NCBI RefSeq assembly: GCF_036227565.1
Contig: NZ_CP109460.1
Coordinates: 2,728,001-2,792,000 of the forward strand
Reading direction: 5' to 3'
Length of the DNA: 64,000 bases
Source of the DNA: Streptomyces sp. NBC_01454
GTDB taxonomy: Bacteria > Actinomycetota > Actinomycetes > Streptomycetales > Streptomycetaceae
Shown: one piece after another, positions 25,830 through 59,674 of the stretch
Layout: each line of letters begins with the position of its first letter
How positions within the stretch are numbered: the first letter of the stretch is position 1
The notes under the pieces: model-generated
What the model was told of the DNA's origin: nothing
Databases searched by the model: none
Seen by the model: only the letters and a program-made list of their open reading frames with translations
Program-made: the position numbers and the translations under genes

Positions 25830-26183
25830 CCCCACGGGGTGGCGGCCCCCTTCCTGGTGGCTTCCTGGCCGCCCCCGCCGCACGGCACGCCGTACGCCCC
25901 GCTGAGCCCGCGCCCACCCGGCCGCGGGCTCCTTCGTGTGCCCGGCCCCGCCCACCGGTCCCGCCGCTGTCGCCACACCCCCACGCGTGCGCACACCGCA
26001 CCACTGCCCAGCCACCGCCCGGCCGAATCCGGCATGGCGCCGCACCGCCGGGGCACCACGCTTTCCGGCCACCGTGCGTGCCCCTGCCCGGGCCGGCGCA
26101 CGGCGCAAGACAACCGGCGCCGCACCCGGAAGACGACATGACGAAGGCCCGGATTCCCAAGGAATCCGGGCCTTCGTCTTCAG
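25830..26183. other. Non-coding gap between regulator and tRNA, 354 bp
   Basis: I see no convincing gene. Composition is C-rich and translations in all frames are low-complexity. The tRNA terminator (26141-26177) is the only clear element. Confidence 0.6.
26141..26177 (-). terminator. Terminator of the first initiator tRNA
   Basis: A 17-bp perfect stem (26141-26157 with 26161-26177) with a 3-nt loop lies directly downstream of the minus-strand tRNA. Confidence 0.8.
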
Positions 26184-51920: not shown

Positions 51921-54900
51921 CTATCGGCCTTCCGGGGGATGCCCGTCGGCGGTCTCGCCGAGCAGGATGCGTTCGAGTCCGGCCCGGCCGGGCAGCCGGG
52001 CGGGTCTGACCACCTCGCCGCTGCGGACGTAGAGGAAGGCGGCGTCGACGGCGGCGGGCTCGAGGCCGTGGCGCTCGGCCCAGGCGAGGCGGTAGACGGC
52101 CAGCTGGAGGGGGTCGGCGGTGTGGGTGCGGCCGGTTTTCCAGTCGACGATCTCGAAGCGGTCGCCGTGGGGGCCGGGCTCCTTGTAGACGGCGTCGATG
52201 CGGCCGCGGATCACCCGTCCGGCGAGCGTCAGCTGGAAGGGCGCCTCGACACGGAAGGGGGTGCGGTGGGCGTAGGGGGTGCGGGCGAAGGCTTCCTTGA
52301 GGGTTTCGAGGTCGTGTTCGTCGGCGATCTGGGCGTCCTCGCCCTCTTCGGCGCCCGGCAGCTCGTCGGGGCCGAGCAGGGGCAGGGTCAGCTCTTCGAA
52401 GCGGGATTCGACCCAGGCGTGGAAGCGGGTGCCGCGGCGGGCGCCGGGTTGTGGCGGGCGCGGCATGGGGCGGGCCAGTTCGCGGGCGAAGCCGTCCGGG
52501 TCGGCGGCGAGGCGGAGCAGCTGGGTGGCGCTGAGCGCGGAGGGCAGCGGGACCTCGCGGACGGTGGCGCGGGAGCGGCGCAGTTCGGCGGCGAGCGCCT
52601 CCAGGTCACGGTCCCAGGAGCCGACGGTGCGGCGTTCCTCGGGGAGGAGGGTGGCGGGCGCCTCCTCGTGGGGCGCGGTGTGGCCGTCGTGGGGAGCGTC
52701 GTCCGGGTCGGTGAGGTCGGGCTCCGTGGCGCGCTGGGCGCCGATACGGGGGCGGGGCGGGGCCGGGGCGGCGTCGGGGAGGTCGTGCGGCGGGGCGTCG
52801 TCGAAGGGGTCGTCGAACGGCTCGGCTTCGGGGCCGTCGAACGGGTCGGCCTCGGGACCGTCGAACGGGTCGGCTTCCGGGACGTCGAACGGGTCCGTGT
52901 CCCAGGCGTCGTCGTCGGCCGGGGCCGGCGGCCACTCGGGGTCGTGGGCGGGGAGGGCGGCCGGGGTGGCAAAGGGGGGTGCCGGATCGTCCGTCCGGCG
53001 GGCCAGGTGGGCGTGGACGGTGGCGGCGGCGGCGCGGCGGCGGGCGGTGGCCGTGGGGTCGAGGGGCAGTGGCCAGGCCTGTTCGGTGGCGGCTTCGGCG
53101 AGAGCCGGGTTCTCCTCGCCGTCCTCGGGGGCCGCGGCCCAGTGCTCGATCTCGCCGTGTCCGGCTTCGCAGTGGGTGCGCAGCGCCTCCAGGAAGACGG
53201 ACGGGCCGCGCGGCCGCTTCTGGTGGGGTCCCCACCAGTGGCCGGAGCCGAGCAGCAGGGAGCGGGGGCGGGTGAAGGTGACGTAGCCGAGGCGGAGTTC
53301 CTCGGTTTCCTGGTGGTGCTTCATCGCCTCCTTGAAGTCTTTCAGGCCGCGGGCGGTCCATTCCGTGACGTCGGGGAGGGTGGCGGCGTCACCGCGCAGG
53401 GTGTGCGGGAGGACCTTGGGCCGGCTGGTCCAGGACTCGCGGGCCTGTTCGCTGGGGAACTGCTTGGTGACCAGGCCGGGTACGGCGACGACGTCCCATT
53501 CCAGGCCCTTGGACTTGTGGGCGGTCAGCACCTTGACGGTGTTGTCGCCGCCGGGCAGGGAACTGTCCAGGCCCTTTTCGTACTGGACGGCGGTGCGCAG
53601 AAAGCCGAGGAAGGCGAGGAGGGTGGCGTCGCCGTCGAGGGATTCGCCACCCTGTTTGGCGGCGAAGCCGGCCGCGATGTCGAGGAAGGTGCCGAGGGTT
53701 TCGCGGCGGCGGGCGGCGAGGGCGTGGGGTGAGGCGGACAGCTCGACCTCCAGGCCGGTGGTGGCCAGGACCCGGTGGAGTACGTCCATGAGGGGGTCGC
53801 CGAGGGAGCGGCGCAGGTCGCGGAGTTCGGTGGCGAGGTGGGCGAAGCGGACCCGGGCCTCGGCGGAGAAGGGGAGGCCGTCATCGGGGCCGTCGGCCGC
53901 CAGGAAGGTGTCGAGGGCGTCGGCGAGCGAGATGGTCTCGGCCGGGTCGACGCCCTCGACGGCCTGGGCGAGGCGTTGTGCCGGGTCGTCGGAGGGGGCC
54001 TGGTGGTGGACGAGGGTGCGGGCGCGGCGGCCCAGGAGCGCGAGGTCGCGGGGGCCGATCCGCCAGCGGGGGCCGGTCAGCAGGCGGACCAGGGCGGCGT
54101 TGGCGGTGGGGTCCTGGAGGACGTCGCAGACGGCGACGAGGTCGGCGATCTCGGGCAGATGCAGCAGGCCGGAGAGGCCGACGACCTCGACGGGGACGTC
54201 CCGGGCGACGAGTTCCCCCTGGATGTGGGCGAAGTCGGCGGCGGTGCGGCAGAGCACGGCGATCTCGCCGGGGGGTGTGCCGGTGCCCACGAGGTGGGCG
54301 AGGGAGTCGGCGAGCCAGGTGAGTTCTTCGGCGTGGGTGGGCAGCAGGGCGCAGCGGACGAGGCCGTCGCGCTCGGCGCCGGGGGCGGGGCGCAGTGCCT
54401 CGACGCCTTCGTGCCGTTCGCGGAGGGGGGCGGCGAGTGCGTTGGCGAGGTCGAGGAGGCGGCCGCCGCTGCGGCGGTTCTCGCTGAGGGCCAGGCGGCG
54501 GGCGGGGGTGCCGTCGGGGAAGGGGAAGTGGGCGGGGAAGTCGTCGAGGTTGGCCACGGAGGCGCCGCGCCAGCCGTAGATGGCCTGGCAGGGGTCGCCG
54601 ACGGCGGTGACCGCATGCCCGGTGGCAGCCCCGGTGCCGGCGCCGAAGAGGCCGGAGAGCAATAGCCGTTGGGCGACGGAGGTGTCCTGGTACTCGTCGA
54701 GGAGGACGACGCGGAATTCGTCGCGCAGGAGGCGGCCGACCTCGGGACGGGTGGTGGCGAGGGTGGCGGAGTGGGCGATCTGGTCGCCGAAGTCGAGGAG
54801 GTCGCGGCGGCGCTTCTCGTCCCGGTAGGCGGTGACGAGGTCGAGGAGTTCCAGGCGGCCGCGGGCGGTTTCGGGGGCCTTGCGCAGGTCGGCGTTGGTG

Positions 54901-55529
54901 AGGGTGACGCCGTCGAGGGCGGCGAGCAGCTCGGTGTCGTGGGCGCGGAGTGCGGCGGGGTCGACGAGGTGCTCGGAGAGTTCGGCGTCGAGGGCGAGGA
55001 GGTCCTCCACAAGGGAGGGCAGGGAGGTGGTGAGGGACGGGTAGGGGCCGGGGGCGGTGCGCAGGGTGCGGGCGGCGAGCTGGAAGCGGGTGGCGTCGGC
55101 GAGGAGCCGGGCGCTGGGTTCCAGGCCGACGCGCAGGCCGTGGTCCTTGAGGAGCTGGCCGGCGAAGGCGTGGTAGGTGGAGATCCGCGGCTCTCCGGGG
55201 GGCTGGCCGGTGGCGGCTCCGCCGTCGTCGAGCGGGAGGGCGTCCGGGTCGGTGACGCCGGCGGCGAGGAGGGCGGCCCGGACGCGTTCGGCCAGCTCGC
55301 CGGCCGCCTTGTTGGTGAAGGTCAGGCCGAGGACCTGCTCGGGGGCGACCTGGCCGGTGCCGACCAGCCACACGACGCGTGCGGCCATGACCGTGGTCTT
55401 GCCGGAGCCGGCTCCGGCCACGATGACCTGCGGGGCGGGCGGGGCGGTGATGCACTCCGTCTGCTCCGGTGTGAACGGGATGCCGAGGAGCTCCTTGAGC
55501 TGCTCGGGGTCGGTGAGGCGAGCTGACAC
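51921..55529 (-). CDS. adnB: AdnB-type helicase-nuclease subunit (UvrD motor plus RecB nuclease)
   Basis: The 1202-residue protein has an SF1A motor with Walker A AGAGSGKTTVMA, LTFTNKAAGELAER, DEYQDTSVAQ, GDPCQAIYGWRG and TAHKSKGLEWD. A C-terminal RecB-family nuclease follows with GRIDAVY, EIVDWKTG and QLAVYRLAWA. With AdnA it forms the actinobacterial double-strand break end-resection machine. Around residues 870-910 an acidic linker repeats EADPFDGP-like units. GTG 55529 gives a natural N-terminus (VSARLTDPEQ). The gene lies 680 bp downstream of adnA, separated by the repeat island. Confidence 0.9.
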   Translation of the reverse strand: MSARLTDPEQLKELLGIPFTPEQTECITAPPAPQVIVAGAGSGKTTVMAARVVWLVGTGQVAPEQVLGLTFTNKAAGELAERVRAALLAAGVTDPDALPLDDGGAATGQPPGEPRISTYHAFAGQLLKDHGLRVGLEPSARLLADATRFQLAARTLRTAPGPYPSLTTSLPSLVEDLLALDAELSEHLVDPAALRAHDTELLAALDGVTLTNADLRKAPETARGRLELLDLVTAYRDEKRRRDLLDFGDQIAHSATLATTRPEVGRLLRDEFRVVLLDEYQDTSVAQRLLLSGLFGAGTGAATGHAVTAVGDPCQAIYGWRGASVANLDDFPAHFPFPDGTPARRLALSENRRSGGRLLDLANALAAPLRERHEGVEALRPAPGAERDGLVRCALLPTHAEELTWLADSLAHLVGTGTPPGEIAVLCRTAADFAHIQGELVARDVPVEVVGLSGLLHLPEIADLVAVCDVLQDPTANAALVRLLTGPRWRIGPRDLALLGRRARTLVHHQAPSDDPAQRLAQAVEGVDPAETISLADALDTFLAADGPDDGLPFSAEARVRFAHLATELRDLRRSLGDPLMDVLHRVLATTGLEVELSASPHALAARRRETLGTFLDIAAGFAAKQGGESLDGDATLLAFLGFLRTAVQYEKGLDSSLPGGDNTVKVLTAHKSKGLEWDVVAVPGLVTKQFPSEQARESWTSRPKVLPHTLRGDAATLPDVTEWTARGLKDFKEAMKHHQETEELRLGYVTFTRPRSLLLGSGHWWGPHQKRPRGPSVFLEALRTHCEAGHGEIEHWAAAPEDGEENPALAEAATEQAWPLPLDPTATARRRAAAATVHAHLARRTDDPAPPFATPAALPAHDPEWPPAPADDDAWDTDPFDVPEADPFDGPEADPFDGPEAEPFDDPFDDAPPHDLPDAAPAPPRPRIGAQRATEPDLTDPDDAPHDGHTAPHEEAPATLLPEERRTVGSWDRDLEALAAELRRSRATVREVPLPSALSATQLLRLAADPDGFARELARPMPRPPQPGARRGTRFHAWVESRFEELTLPLLGPDELPGAEEGEDAQIADEHDLETLKEAFARTPYAHRTPFRVEAPFQLTLAGRVIRGRIDAVYKEPGPHGDRFEIVDWKTGRTHTADPLQLAVYRLAWAERHGLEPAAVDAAFLYVRSGEVVRPARLPGRAGLERILLGETADGHPPEGR

Positions 55530-55560
55530 AGCGAAAACCGTAGCGGTCGCCACTGACAAT

Positions 55561-55819
55561 CCGCTGCGCTGGGCTGGCTTCCCACGTTGTCGGCTTTTCC
55601 GCCGTGGTTGTTTCTCGCCGTTGCGCCTGCGGCGGGCCGGTCCGCTGCGCTTGGCTGACTTCCAACGTTCTGGCTTCCCGCCGTGGGGGTTGTTCGCCGT
55701 TGCGCCTGCGGCGGGCGGGTGGGTGTGGGGTGCGGTGACGGACCTCCGGGGGTGGGTGTTCGGACTGCTTCGCTTTACGTCCGAACACCCACCCCCTCCG
55801 GCCCGTCCCCTCCCGTGGG
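55561..55819 (-). repeat. Repeat element copy A (minus orientation)
   Basis: Read on the minus strand, the element starts with CCCACGGGAGGGGACGGG and then has a perfect 18-bp stem (55779-55796 with 55748-55765) around the 13-nt loop GTAAAGCGAAGCA. GGAGGTCCGTCACCGCACCC follows. Two tandem units of about 81 bp come next, each made of a CCCGCCGCAGGCGCAACGGC module and a CCACGGCGG...GCGCAGCGG module. It ends 32 bp before the adnB start. Confidence 0.85.
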
Positions 55820-55922
55820 GGGATGAGTGAACGTGTGTGGGGGCGGGCCACCGATGGCCGTCTTGGTACGACCGTCCAGGCGCGCTGGACCAGCTACGTC
55901 CACCCCCACCGGCTGTTCCTCT

Positions 55923-56206
55923 CCCACAACGGGAGGGGGCGGGCCGGAGGGGCCGGTGTGTGGGACGTAAAGCGAAGCAGTCCCACACACCGGCCCCGGA
56001 GGCCCGTCACCGCACCCCGACAGCCCCGCGCAGCGGACCCCCGCCCGCCGCAGGCGCAACGACGAGACGACACACGACGCCGCAGACGACAACGCGGGAA
56101 CCAGCCCCGCGCAGCGGAGAGCGCACCGCGAAGCGGGCGAAACACGGCGAGCAACAAAGCACGGCGGGAAAGCCAAAAACGTGGGAAGCCGAACCAAGCG
56201 CAACGG
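55923..56206 (+). repeat. Repeat element copy B (plus orientation)
   Basis: The order is the same as copy A but on the plus strand: CCCACAACGGGAGGGGGCGGG, a perfect 18-bp stem (55949-55966 with 55980-55997) around the identical loop GTAAAGCGAAGCA, GGAGGCCCGTCACCGCACCC, and then the same tail modules, more diverged. The last module ends at the adnA stop codon. The stem sequence differs from copy A at several positions, all compensated on the other arm. Confidence 0.85.
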
Positions 56207-56209
56207 AAC

Positions 56210-59200
56210 TCACTCCACCACGTGCCGCCCCTCCGGCTGGGCGCTGCACGAGGCGCGGAAGGTGCAGTGGGTGCAGTGGGTGCCGGTGGTGGGGGTGAAG
56301 CGCTCCTCCAGGACGCGGCCTGCGGCGGTGGCGAGCAGGTCGCCGACCCACTCCCCCTCCAGCGGCTGCTGCGCCTGTACGGCGGGCAGGGCGTCGCCGC
56401 CCTCCTTCTGGGGTGCGCCCAGGCGCAGATGCACCAGTTCCGCGCCGCCCGGGTCCGGGGTGCGGCCGTCGAAGGCCTCGTCGAGGGCGCCCTCGCGCAC
56501 CGCGAGCTGGTAGACGGCGAGCTGGGGGTGGCGGGCGACCTCGGGGCCGGTCGGTTTCTGCTTGCCGGTCTTGAAGTCGACGACGTACGCGCGTCCCTGT
56601 GCGTCGCGGGAGACGTGGTCCATGCTGCCCCGGATGCGGACCTCGTGGGTGCCGGCCCGGAGGGTGAGGTCGAAGCCGTGCTCGGTGGCGACGGTGTCCC
56701 GGCCGCGGGTCTCGCGCTCCATGACGTGCCAGCGCAGGAAGCGCTCCAGAGCGGCGCGCGCGGTGTCCTTTTCCTGGCGGGACTTCCAGGGGGCGTCGAA
56801 GGCGAGCGCGTCCCATACGGAGTCCAGGCGTTCCATCAGGACGGCCAGATCGGCGGGGGTGCGGCCGGAGGCGACCTCGTCGGCGAGGACGTGCACCACG
56901 TTGCCGAAGCCCTGGGCGGCGGTGGCGGGGGTGTCCGCCTTGACCTCGCGGCCCAGGAACCACTGGAGGGAGCAGGTGCGGGCGAGCTGGTCGAGGGCGC
57001 TGCCGGAGAGGACCACGGGCCGGTCGCGGTCGCGCAGCGGGACGCTGCTGCGGGTGGGTTCGTGCAGGCCCCACCAGGTGTCGGGGTGGGCGGCCGGTAC
57101 CAGGGGGTGGTGGTCGTCGTCGCGGAGCGCGGCCAGGTGGGCGAGCCGCTGGGCGGCGGCCTCGCGCAGTGCGGGGGTGGCGGCCGGGTCGACGGTGGTG
57201 GCGCGCAGTTCGGCGACGAGTGCGGCCACCGAGAGGGGGCGGCGCGGGCGGCCGGTGACGTCCTGGGGGGTGACGCCCAGCTCGGTCAGGAAACGGGACG
57301 GCTGGTCGCCGTCGTCGGCCGCGCCCTTCACGGCGGTGACGACCAGCCGTTCGCGGGCGCGGGTGGCGGCCACGTAGAACAGCCGGCGTTCCTCGGCGAG
57401 CAGGGCGCCGGCGGGCAGCGGCTCGGCCAGGCCGTCGCGGCCGATCCGGTCGGCTTCCAGGAGCGAGCCGCGCCGGCGCAGGTCGGGCCACAGCCCTTCC
57501 TGGACGCCGGCGACGACGACGAGCCGCCACTCCAGGCCCTTGGCGCGGTGGGCGGTCATCAGGCGTACGGCGTCGGGGCGCACCGCGCGGCGGGTGAGGG
57601 TGTCGGCGGCGATGTCCTGGGCGTCGAGTTCCTCCAGGAAGTTGAGGGCGCCGCGGCCGCCGGTGCGTTCCTCGGCGCGGGCGGCGGTCTCGAAGAGGGC
57701 GACGACGGCGTCCAGGTCGCGGTCGGCGTTGCGGCCGGCGGCGCCGCCGCGGTGGGCGGCCCGCTCCAGGCGCTGCGGCCAGGGGGTGCCGTCCCACAGC
57801 TCCCACAGCGCCTGTTCGGCGGTGCCGCCGTCGGCGAGGAGGGCGCGGGCCTTGCGCAGCAGCAGGCCGAGCCGCTGGGCGCCGCGGGCGTAGCCGGGGT
57901 CGTGGGCGACCAGGCGCCGGGGGTCGGCCAGGGCGCGGGCGATCAGCTCGTCGGAGGGGCGGGGCAGTGGCTGTCCGGCGTGGCGTTCCTCCTCGCGCAG
58001 GGCGCGGCCCAGCCGGCGCAGGTCGGCGGAGTCCATGCCGCCCAGCGGGGAGGCCAGCAGGTCGGTGGCGGTTTCGGCGTCGAGCCACCCGGGGGCTGCG
58101 CCGTCCCCCTCCGGGGCGGTCGGTCCGGGTGCGGCCTCCTGGGGGGCGGTCTCGGCGGACGGGGCGTCAGGGCCGGCGTCGGGGGCGGGGCCCAGGGCGG
58201 CCCGGGCCGCCACCCGCAGCGCCGTCAGCAGGGGGGCGACCGCGGGTTCGTGCCGCAGCGGCAGATCGTCGCCGTCGATGTCGAGGGGGACGCCGGCCGA
58301 GGTGAGCGCACGGCGCACGGCGGGCAGCGAGCGCCCGCCGGCGCGGACGAGGACGGCCATCTCGCGCCAGGGCACGCCGTCCTCCAGGTGGGCGCGGCGC
58401 AGGATGTCGGCGACGTTGTCGAGTTCGGCGCCGGGCGTCGGGTACGTGTACGCCTCGACGCGGCCGCCGTCCCGTACGGGCCGGGGCTCGCGGTGGGCGC
58501 GTACCTTCGCGGCGGGCAGGCGGGTGAGCGGCATCCGGCGGGTCAGCTGCCGGGTGGCGGCGAGCAGGTCGGCGCCGGAGCGTCGGGAGGTGCCGAGGAC
58601 GGCGACCGGGGCGGGGGTGCCGTCGCCGCGCCGGAACGTCTCGGGGAAGTCGAGGATGCCGTTGACGTCGGCGCCGCGGAAGGCGTAGATCGACTGGTCG
58701 GGGTCGCCGAAGGCGAGGAGCGTGCGTCCCGGGGAGCCCGGTGCGGCGGACGCGGTGTGGTTGCCGGCCAGTGCGCGCAGCAGCCGTACCTGGGCGGCGT
58801 CGGTGTCCTGGTACTCGTCGACGTAGACCGCGTCATAGGCGGTTGCCCACCGGGCCGCGGTGTCGGTGTGTTCGGCGAGCAGCACCGCGCGGTGCACCAG
58901 TTCGGCGTAGTCGAGCACGCCCTGGGCGTCGAGGACGTCGAGGTATTCGGCGAGGAAGCCGGCCGCGGCGCTCCAGTCGGGGCGTCCGGTGCGGGCGGCG
59001 AAGGCGCCGAGGGCGTCCGGGCCCAGGCCCAGTTCGCGGCTGCGGGCGAGCACCGCGCGGACCTCGTCGGCGAAACCGCGGGTGGTCAGGCAGGCGCGCA
59101 GCTCGTCCGGCCAGCGCACCCGGCCGCGGCCCGCACCGGCCAGTTCGGCCTGTCCTTCGAGGAGTTCACGCACCACGAGGTCCTGCTCGGGTCCGGACAG

Positions 59201-59674
59201 CAGCCGCAGCGGGTCGGCGAAGAGTTCGGCGTCCTGGTGGGCGCGGACCAGGGCGTAGCAGAAGGAGTGGAAGGTGGTCGCCTGCGGGATGCCGGGCCGG
59301 CGCGGGCCGGCGCCGGTGCCCGCGGGCCCGCCGGGCGGTGCGTCCGGTCCGGTCAGCCGGGCCGCGAGCCGGTCGCGGAGTTCGACGGCGGCCTTGCGGC
59401 TGAAGGTGAGGACGAGGATCCGTTCGGAGTCGCCGCCGGAGCGCACCCGGCGGACCACCGACTCCACCAGCGTCGTGGTCTTGCCGGTGCCCGGCCCGGC
59501 CAGCACCAGCAGCGGCCCGTGCCGGTGGTCAACCACGGCGCGCTGGGCTGCGTCCAAGACAGGAGGATCCACCCGCCCCGGCGCGGTGCGCACCAGGCGG
59601 TACGCGCCGGCGGTGTTCCGCCGCGCCGCCCGGTGGGGCTGCGTCGGCGGGACGGCCGAGAAGGAGGAGCTCAC
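56210..59674 (-). CDS. adnA: AdnA-type helicase-nuclease subunit with Fe-S nuclease motif
   Basis: The 1154-residue protein has an SF1A motor (AGPGTGKTTTLVE, LTFSRKAAVELRD, DEYQDTDAAQ, GDPDQSIYAFRG, TAHRAKGLEW) and a C-terminal RecB-type nuclease (MDHVSRD, VVDFKTGKQ, QLAVYQLA). A Cys in ARTCSLQWF and CTHCTFRASC at the end give the four-cysteine Fe-S staple seen in AddB-type nucleases. With AdnB it resects DNA breaks. GTG 59674 is used, with AGGA about 11 nt upstream. It is upstream of adnB on the same strand, as in mycobacteria. Confidence 0.9.
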   Translation of the reverse strand: MSSSFSAVPPTQPHRAARRNTAGAYRLVRTAPGRVDPPVLDAAQRAVVDHRHGPLLVLAGPGTGKTTTLVESVVRRVRSGGDSERILVLTFSRKAAVELRDRLAARLTGPDAPPGGPAGTGAGPRRPGIPQATTFHSFCYALVRAHQDAELFADPLRLLSGPEQDLVVRELLEGQAELAGAGRGRVRWPDELRACLTTRGFADEVRAVLARSRELGLGPDALGAFAARTGRPDWSAAAGFLAEYLDVLDAQGVLDYAELVHRAVLLAEHTDTAARWATAYDAVYVDEYQDTDAAQVRLLRALAGNHTASAAPGSPGRTLLAFGDPDQSIYAFRGADVNGILDFPETFRRGDGTPAPVAVLGTSRRSGADLLAATRQLTRRMPLTRLPAAKVRAHREPRPVRDGGRVEAYTYPTPGAELDNVADILRRAHLEDGVPWREMAVLVRAGGRSLPAVRRALTSAGVPLDIDGDDLPLRHEPAVAPLLTALRVAARAALGPAPDAGPDAPSAETAPQEAAPGPTAPEGDGAAPGWLDAETATDLLASPLGGMDSADLRRLGRALREEERHAGQPLPRPSDELIARALADPRRLVAHDPGYARGAQRLGLLLRKARALLADGGTAEQALWELWDGTPWPQRLERAAHRGGAAGRNADRDLDAVVALFETAARAEERTGGRGALNFLEELDAQDIAADTLTRRAVRPDAVRLMTAHRAKGLEWRLVVVAGVQEGLWPDLRRRGSLLEADRIGRDGLAEPLPAGALLAEERRLFYVAATRARERLVVTAVKGAADDGDQPSRFLTELGVTPQDVTGRPRRPLSVAALVAELRATTVDPAATPALREAAAQRLAHLAALRDDDHHPLVPAAHPDTWWGLHEPTRSSVPLRDRDRPVVLSGSALDQLARTCSLQWFLGREVKADTPATAAQGFGNVVHVLADEVASGRTPADLAVLMERLDSVWDALAFDAPWKSRQEKDTARAALERFLRWHVMERETRGRDTVATEHGFDLTLRAGTHEVRIRGSMDHVSRDAQGRAYVVDFKTGKQKPTGPEVARHPQLAVYQLAVREGALDEAFDGRTPDPGGAELVHLRLGAPQKEGGDALPAVQAQQPLEGEWVGDLLATAAGRVLEERFTPTTGTHCTHCTFRASCSAQPEGRHVVE

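Follow-up and report, generated by a model that had tools for sequence, protein, structure and literature searches.

A Streptomyces family of paired, inverted hairpin repeats with GNA-type tips and its likeness to REP elements and DNA mini-hairpins

REPs occur as inverted hairpin pairs at gene ends and have strand-specific tips, as described in the available text of PMC3733652. The repeats reported in this study resemble REP/BIME elements of the GTAG and CGTC families, as well as REPINs, in being dispersed intergenic palindromes that form inverted pairs with strand-specific features, and like REP/BIME they lie beside gene 3' ends in convergent or codirectional gaps. However, REP stems measure 6-13 bp (GTAG) or 8-9 bp (CGTC) whereas the stems of this family are mostly 17-38 bp long, and the base of its 17-18-bp stems carries GNA instead of a GTAG or 5' CGTC tag. 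Additionally, the family has a structured loop of 13 nt and a GNA/GNA internal loop, it is built as a unit of about 0.5 kb with outer inverted ends, and most of the carrier genomes searched have no Y1 gene. When four hallmarks of REPs were compared, the tag, the short stem and the Y1 gene were lacking as features of the family, and only the intergenic inverted pairs at gene 3' ends were found.

Other described systems share single features with the family. MITEs are likewise short and non-coding, with inverted ends, many copies and patchy occupancy, and terminal inverted repeats are present here as well. Unlike MITEs, the family has internal hairpins and many sites that are common to several species, and neither an autonomous partner (in the genome of the window) nor a target duplication (by eye) was found. 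Streptomyces telomeres form hairpins with GCA loops closed by a sheared G:A pair, and their single strand is bound by Tap (PMC4513846, in the part available). The GNA-type tips of the family are like those of palindromes II and III of typical Streptomyces telomeres, though the family is chromosome-internal, is present in many copies and has two hairpins per element in inverted order. Ultrastable DNA mini-hairpins follow the rule that the loop is GNA or GNNA and that two or more G-C pairs close it, and d(GCGAAGC) mini-hairpins have the same motif and the same variation rule as the family (PMC4686876). In that source they are known from chemistry and aptamers, whereas here they form the tip that is conserved in a naturally occurring family of repeats. 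Judged from sequence, the data are best explained by a REP/BIME- or MITE-like Streptomyces family of a new design, whose hairpins would form in single-stranded DNA and be read by a putative protein, and we put the probability of this reading at about 0.6.

The element in the window

The window, meaning the whole 64,000-nt stretch of DNA that was analyzed, contains one inverted element of 605 bp (55581-56185, not assigned to a strand) bounded by outer ends that resemble terminal inverted repeats. The left outer inverted end, CCCACGTTGTCGGCTTTTCCGCCGTGG, is located at 55581-55607 on the + strand, and the right one, which has the same motif, at 56160-56185 on the - strand; the consensus of the outer inverted ends is CCCACGTTNTCGGCTTTCCCGCCGTGG. 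Inverted repeats of the type CCGCTGCGC were also present just beyond the element ends (from about 55561 and to about 56207). The element occupies most of the gap between two genes on the - strand that each encode a UvrD helicase with a PDDEXK nuclease, and which we take to be an AdnAB-like pair. In reading direction, the downstream gene (51921-55530) starts 51 bp from the element and the upstream gene (56210-59674) has its stop codon 24 bp from it.

An earlier note on this DNA had described two inverted hairpins with perfect 18-bp stems, an identical 13-nt loop when each is read in its own direction, and about seven compensated differences between the stems, and all of these observations were confirmed. 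Hairpin A (55748-55796, loop 55766-55778) and hairpin B (55949-55997, loop 55967-55979) both have a perfect 18-bp stem. The loop of A is TGCTTCGCTTTAC on the + strand and the loop of B is GTAAAGCGAAGCA, its exact reverse complement, and the GTAAAGC-GAA-GCA tip is on the - strand in A and on the + strand in B. With both stems oriented alike, inspection by eye shows 7 differences among the 18 positions, every one of them compensated. Each stem stands on a GGA/GGA internal loop that was read from the sequence, formed by 55946-55948 with 55998-56000 in B (55946-56000, + strand) and by 55745-55747 with 55797-55799 in A (- strand). The element centre between the hairpins (55800-55945) is likewise without an assigned strand. 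Two subfamilies were recognized, and the second has an extra, third hairpin in the element centre, preceded by an A run and followed by a T run (L030-L033).

A repeat search detected longer arms, each pair 13 nt apart (55734-55765/55779-55810 and 55935-55966/55980-56011), and the two resulting 97-nt units are inverted copies with 81% identity and a spacing of 98 nt. When each unit was folded with RNA parameters, the energies were 4.3 to 8.3 sd below those of dinucleotide shuffles on both strands. A search of the window for perfect stems with loops of 3-20 nt returned 8 stems of at least 14 bp, 3 of which reach 18 bp, with A and B among them. Twelve Markov-1 random sequences of 64 kb each with the neighbour frequencies of the window gave one 14-bp stem altogether and none that was longer. 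The third perfect 18-bp stem in the window (26140-26178) has a 3-nt loop and a sequence unrelated to A and B.

Copies, genomic position and shared sites

The genome of the window (G000) contains 25 hairpins at 13 places, i.e. 12 inverted pairs and one single hairpin, all 25 of them exact in a search for the 14-nt loop motif that allowed one mismatch and whose backward control gave 1 match. With 13 places in one genome and copies in other species, local duplication, a doubt that the earlier note had raised against its own reading, was rejected. Of 392 genomes from the genus, 19 contain the 14-nt motif, and 12 of these 19 have it at more than one place. Four of the seven one-copy genomes (G060, G306, G360, G370) had no stem around the motif and are counted as chance matches, so 15 of the 392 remain. 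Lone motifs without a stem (L198, L204, L206, L207) have near-identical surroundings, which to us look like tRNA arms. It should be noted that the motif count misses species with other loops, as in G210, which has 1 match to the motif yet 76 hairpins; 10 of the 14 carrier genomes searched had 10-76 hairpins each. A scan of named genomes returned at least 120 stretches, and all 80 of the matches listed were from Streptomyces. Where two hairpins lie within 600 nt, 42 of 43 pairs face each other in one order, L071 being the exception, though a few of the loci behind this count are duplicates.

No exact 19-mer was found in viral contigs and phage records gave no match, and a phage or viral origin was rejected on these grounds. 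Plasmid records gave one match, to a 2.8-Mb Streptomyces record at 69% identity. The family was not found in open-licence literature on Streptomyces repeats as judged by titles and abstract openings. The letters of the loop occurred in two papers, one on Candida and one on mouse cells. The hairpin repeats are apparently a Streptomyces family that has so far not been described.

The position of the element was analyzed at 93 loci of six genomes (those listed for G000, G080, G406, G310 and G364 plus 7 of the 15 of G207), with surrounding genes called by a simple G+C-frame script. The element lies in a convergent gap at 49 loci, in a codirectional gap at 44 and in a divergent gap at 0. The other gene pairs in the same loci, excluding the element's own gap, are 11 convergent, 47 divergent and 100 codirectional, and the 47 genes of the window give 10 convergent, 9 divergent and 27 codirectional pairs. 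The outer end motif was found at 118 of the 186 ends. The 86 ends that face a stop codon are at a median distance of 6 bp from it (56 within 10 bp), and the 32 that face a start codon are at a median distance of 66 bp (0 within 10 bp). At L030 and L031, the flanking genes end in ..SHVAG*, with the stop codon furnished by the outer end of the element.

Each of 22 sites, which together cover 70 of the 93 loci, is occupied in two or more of the six genomes, and stems at the same site in different species often differ. Some stem types are common in a single genome and absent from the five others; one such type has 14 copies in G080, and another has 6 in G207. Other types are shared, as hairpin B has a stem with 9 copies in its own genome and 14 in the other five, and hairpin A one with 7 and 7. 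Across 56 paired loci, hairpins from one genome had a mean identity of 0.937, those from one site in different genomes 0.914 and all others 0.896. Likeness within a genome is thus only modestly higher and is a modest sign of concerted change. At several sites the two hairpin types are swapped when the loci are oriented by their flanking genes.

The adnB-adnA gap, in which the element of the window resides, was compared in 30 genomes. Family tips were present in 4 of them (G000, G080, G406 and G210, the last with a contig end inside the gap) and a remnant in 1 (G364). The other 25 gaps contained no tip, short hairpin or end motif, and 10 of these 25 genomes have an element elsewhere. In the G364 remnant (L228), the outer ends are joined and both hairpins are lost, as after a deletion between short CCACG repeats. 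The G406 copy in this gap (L247) combines two kinds of hairpin, the short GGAC-GNA-GTCC type and, on the opposite side, one with the 13-nt tip.

Tip, internal loop and arm copying

On the strand that carries GTAAAGC, the tip reads GTAAA-GC-loop-GC-A. When the small loop was left free in the search (ACGTAAAGCN{2,6}GCAGT), all 325 matches in 14 genomes (150, a further 70 of G210, 80, and 25 from the genome of the window; all inspected) obeyed GNA or GNNA, and in all 325 this loop is closed by at least two G-C pairs as in the mini-hairpins. A backward control for all but the 25 own-genome matches gave 0. Only GAA, GCA, GACA, GTCA and GCCA were found, and because the loop has just these five variants the tally counts copies rather than independent events. 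The pattern fixes the other tip bases and the closing AC/GT and therefore is no test of those, and copies with an altered tip escape it because AC and GT are required beside the tip; G406 has 37 copies by the 14-nt search versus 25 by the free-loop pattern. Of the 176 hairpins with enough flanking sequence, 100 had a partner of the same kind and 76 gave a different hairpin or none. The loops of those 100 partners were GAA in 87, GCA in 9, GACA in 2 and GTCA in 1, with one altered outside the small loop, pairs of exact hairpins being counted from both sides. In the copies examined, the family varies its tips only within the GNA/GNNA rule of synthetic DNA, which points to single-stranded DNA hairpins in living cells.

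The internal loop under the 17-18-bp stems is similarly constant: of 161 hairpins, 159 have GNA on its 5' side and 160 have it on the 3' side, and changes mostly affect the middle base alone. Features of the tip and the internal loop mark one strand, and the marked strand is not the same one in both members of a pair. The DNA energy model left the 13-nt loop open and did not predict the mini-hairpin; to our knowledge, the model used carries no GNA bonus. The RNA model paired the tip differently from the proposed mini-hairpin. In some hairpins (L087, L163, L346, L353, L354, L356, L376), a long tip insert contributes extra GC-GNA-GC units as well as an inner stem, an arrangement that bears some resemblance to the paired ears of Streptomyces telomeres. 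Hairpins of a sister family, whose short stem is GGAC-loop-GTCC, were detected in 8 of 11 genomes with 64 matches in total (control, 4); 58 of the loops are GAA or GGA and 6 break the rule. These short GGAC-GNA-GTCC hairpins also occur as inverted pairs in G153 (e.g. L391), mostly spaced by 128-129 bp, and in the genome of the window (L264, L269).

Stem pairing was assessed in 242 distinct hairpins, of which 171 are paired at 18 of 18 positions and 228 have no more than 4 unpaired; the 14 with 6 or more unpaired positions are omitted from the pair counts. The 228 hairpins represent 97 distinct stems, and 71 of their 4104 cells are unpaired, including 27 at the last position and 33 in which A stands opposite G. 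Uncompensated stem changes, which the earlier note had singled out as evidence against its reading, thus exist in the family but are rare. At positions 5-17 of the 97 distinct stems, 96.8% of cells are paired, compared to a mean of 52.7% (maximum 56.2%) in 500 column shuffles, which overstate the number of events because the stem rows are related. Sliding the arms against each other reduced pairing at these positions to 31-48%.

Stem length is within 17-38 bp in 220 of the 228 hairpins. Long stems of at least 24 bp, which extend past the usual place of the internal loop, were seen in 41 of the 182 hairpins whose 36-nt arms are distinct, and 30 of the 41 read as one arm copied from the other. 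Copying is seen in both directions, since in 20 the 5' arm is the complement of the usual 3' arm sequence and in 10 the direction is the reverse; the other 11 were not classed. Correction of quasipalindromes by template switching is known (PMC7202029, available text) and has the same result as the one-arm-onto-other copies of this family. Its side-by-side copies with an arm apparently copied onto the other arm can serve as a natural record of template switching. Fold-back templating of this kind makes part of the apparent covariation, and the family cautions against reading selection for RNA structure into every compensated stem change. The earlier note had concluded from the paired changes that the structure is selected. 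Its conclusion holds insofar as the structure is kept across copies and species while the stem sequence varies, but the paired changes alone do not imply selection. Template switching needs a folded single strand, which suggests that the hairpins form in the cell. The internal loop is nevertheless kept in most copies, so something would hold it against erasure by arm copying, and we infer that a constraint does so. The GNA/GNNA tip together with the GNA/GNA internal loop is a firmer sign of constraint than the paired stem changes.

Weighing the explanations

Starting from the anatomy, tip rule, arm copying, position and site sharing that were read from the sequences, the preferred reading would work as follows. 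A full copy consists of the outer inverted ends and two inward-facing hairpins. When a strand becomes single, as lagging-strand template, during repair or in a cruciform, its hairpin would fold, and the constant tip (GTAAA bulge, mini-hairpin and A) may then be read by a putative sequence- and shape-specific protein. Nascent DNA that folds back at the hairpin would copy one arm from the other, which would keep the stems perfect whatever their sequence, and recombination between copies, or movement of the element, would spread stems through the genome. In a bolder form of the proposal, which we regard as quite unlikely, the tip would be recognized by a dedicated protein that binds hairpins of single-stranded DNA, possibly one akin to the telomere proteins, and the population would renew itself by fold-back synthesis and then recombination with no need for a Y1 or classical transposase. 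If a binding protein is found, it would represent a further hairpin-reading system in Streptomyces, whose telomeres use similar hairpins. As to function, the position of the element suggests that it probably terminates transcription between its neighbour genes or insulates them from each other's transcription.

The structured RNA that the earlier note had offered as one of three readings would be an RNA-level element, either a bidirectional terminator or a stabilizer of the 3' UTR at gene ends, with the structure selected in RNA. The absence of all 93 copies from divergent gaps, the element ends that adjoin stop codons, the very stable folds of the 97-nt units and, in L030-L033, the A and T runs on either side of the central hairpin are consistent with it. 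However, of the 4104 stem cells only 15 are G-U pairs when the GTAAAGC strand is read and 8 when the opposite strand is read, and this scarcity makes selection on RNA unlikely; also, the GNA tips of a pair are on opposite strands, so that no single transcript carries both. An intrinsic terminator at the hairpins of the window was rejected, as neither A nor B fits a G+C hairpin with a directly following T run. Terminator-like sites numbered 1 in the window stretch versus 0.5 expected, and 3 versus 1.1 expected in L031, where one of the 3 is in the central hairpin, and this excess stays inside the range of the shuffles or barely exceeds it. Rfam returned 7 matches with E values of 0.086-0.81, all far under their gathering scores, and a known Rfam family was therefore rejected. 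Overall, we consider an origin of the structure in RNA unlikely.

The two remaining alternatives involve transposases. A single-stranded DNA hairpin fits best among the readings that the earlier note had offered, but the IS200-like form of it, a REP-type unit that a Y1 (HUH) transposase would move by single-strand transposition, is very improbable. Inverted hairpin pairs, gene-end location and strand-specific tips do resemble REPs (PMC3733652, as far as its available text goes). However, the stem base has no GTAG tag, stems are mostly longer than the 6-13 bp of REPs, and the search for a Y1 gene in carriers that the note had proposed spoke against such a partner. No PF01797 gene was found in the genome of the window, and 9 of the 10 carriers searched, this genome included, lack one, compared to 2 of 12 genomes without the 14-nt motif that have it. 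The 3.4-kb locus around the PF01797 gene of the sole positive carrier contains no GTAAAGC. A Y1/RAYT partner was rejected on this basis, and for PF01797 specifically the Y1 reading is largely refuted. Alternatively, the element could be non-autonomous and depend for movement on a DDE-type transposase that works at its outer ends, in which case the hairpins would be passive and their perfect pairing would reflect quasipalindrome correction only. The conserved outer inverted ends, the patchy adnB-adnA site (4 of 30 genomes plus the remnant in 1) and the arm copying seen in the sequences, given that template-switch correction is known from the available text of PMC7202029, argue for this. Against it, the genome of the window yielded no autonomous copy sharing the outer ends when the end motif was searched with up to 2 mismatches: the 26 matches were at known element places or at three further ones, partners were separated by about 840 bp at most, and no transposase was noticed among the neighbours that were read. 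No target-site duplication was evident by eye at the element ends inspected, and correction alone leaves the invariant G and A of the tip and the retained GNA/GNA internal loop unexplained. Passive hairpins moved by a DDE-type enzyme are accordingly doubtful in our view.

Two elements carry a gene-sized stretch between their hairpins. The stretch in L350 (G406:C3:6675900-6680500, at 2018-2518 on the - strand) codes for a GNAT acetyltransferase. L307 (G080:C1:1423000-1427800) has about 500 nt between its hairpins, which is presumably a VOC-type reading frame.
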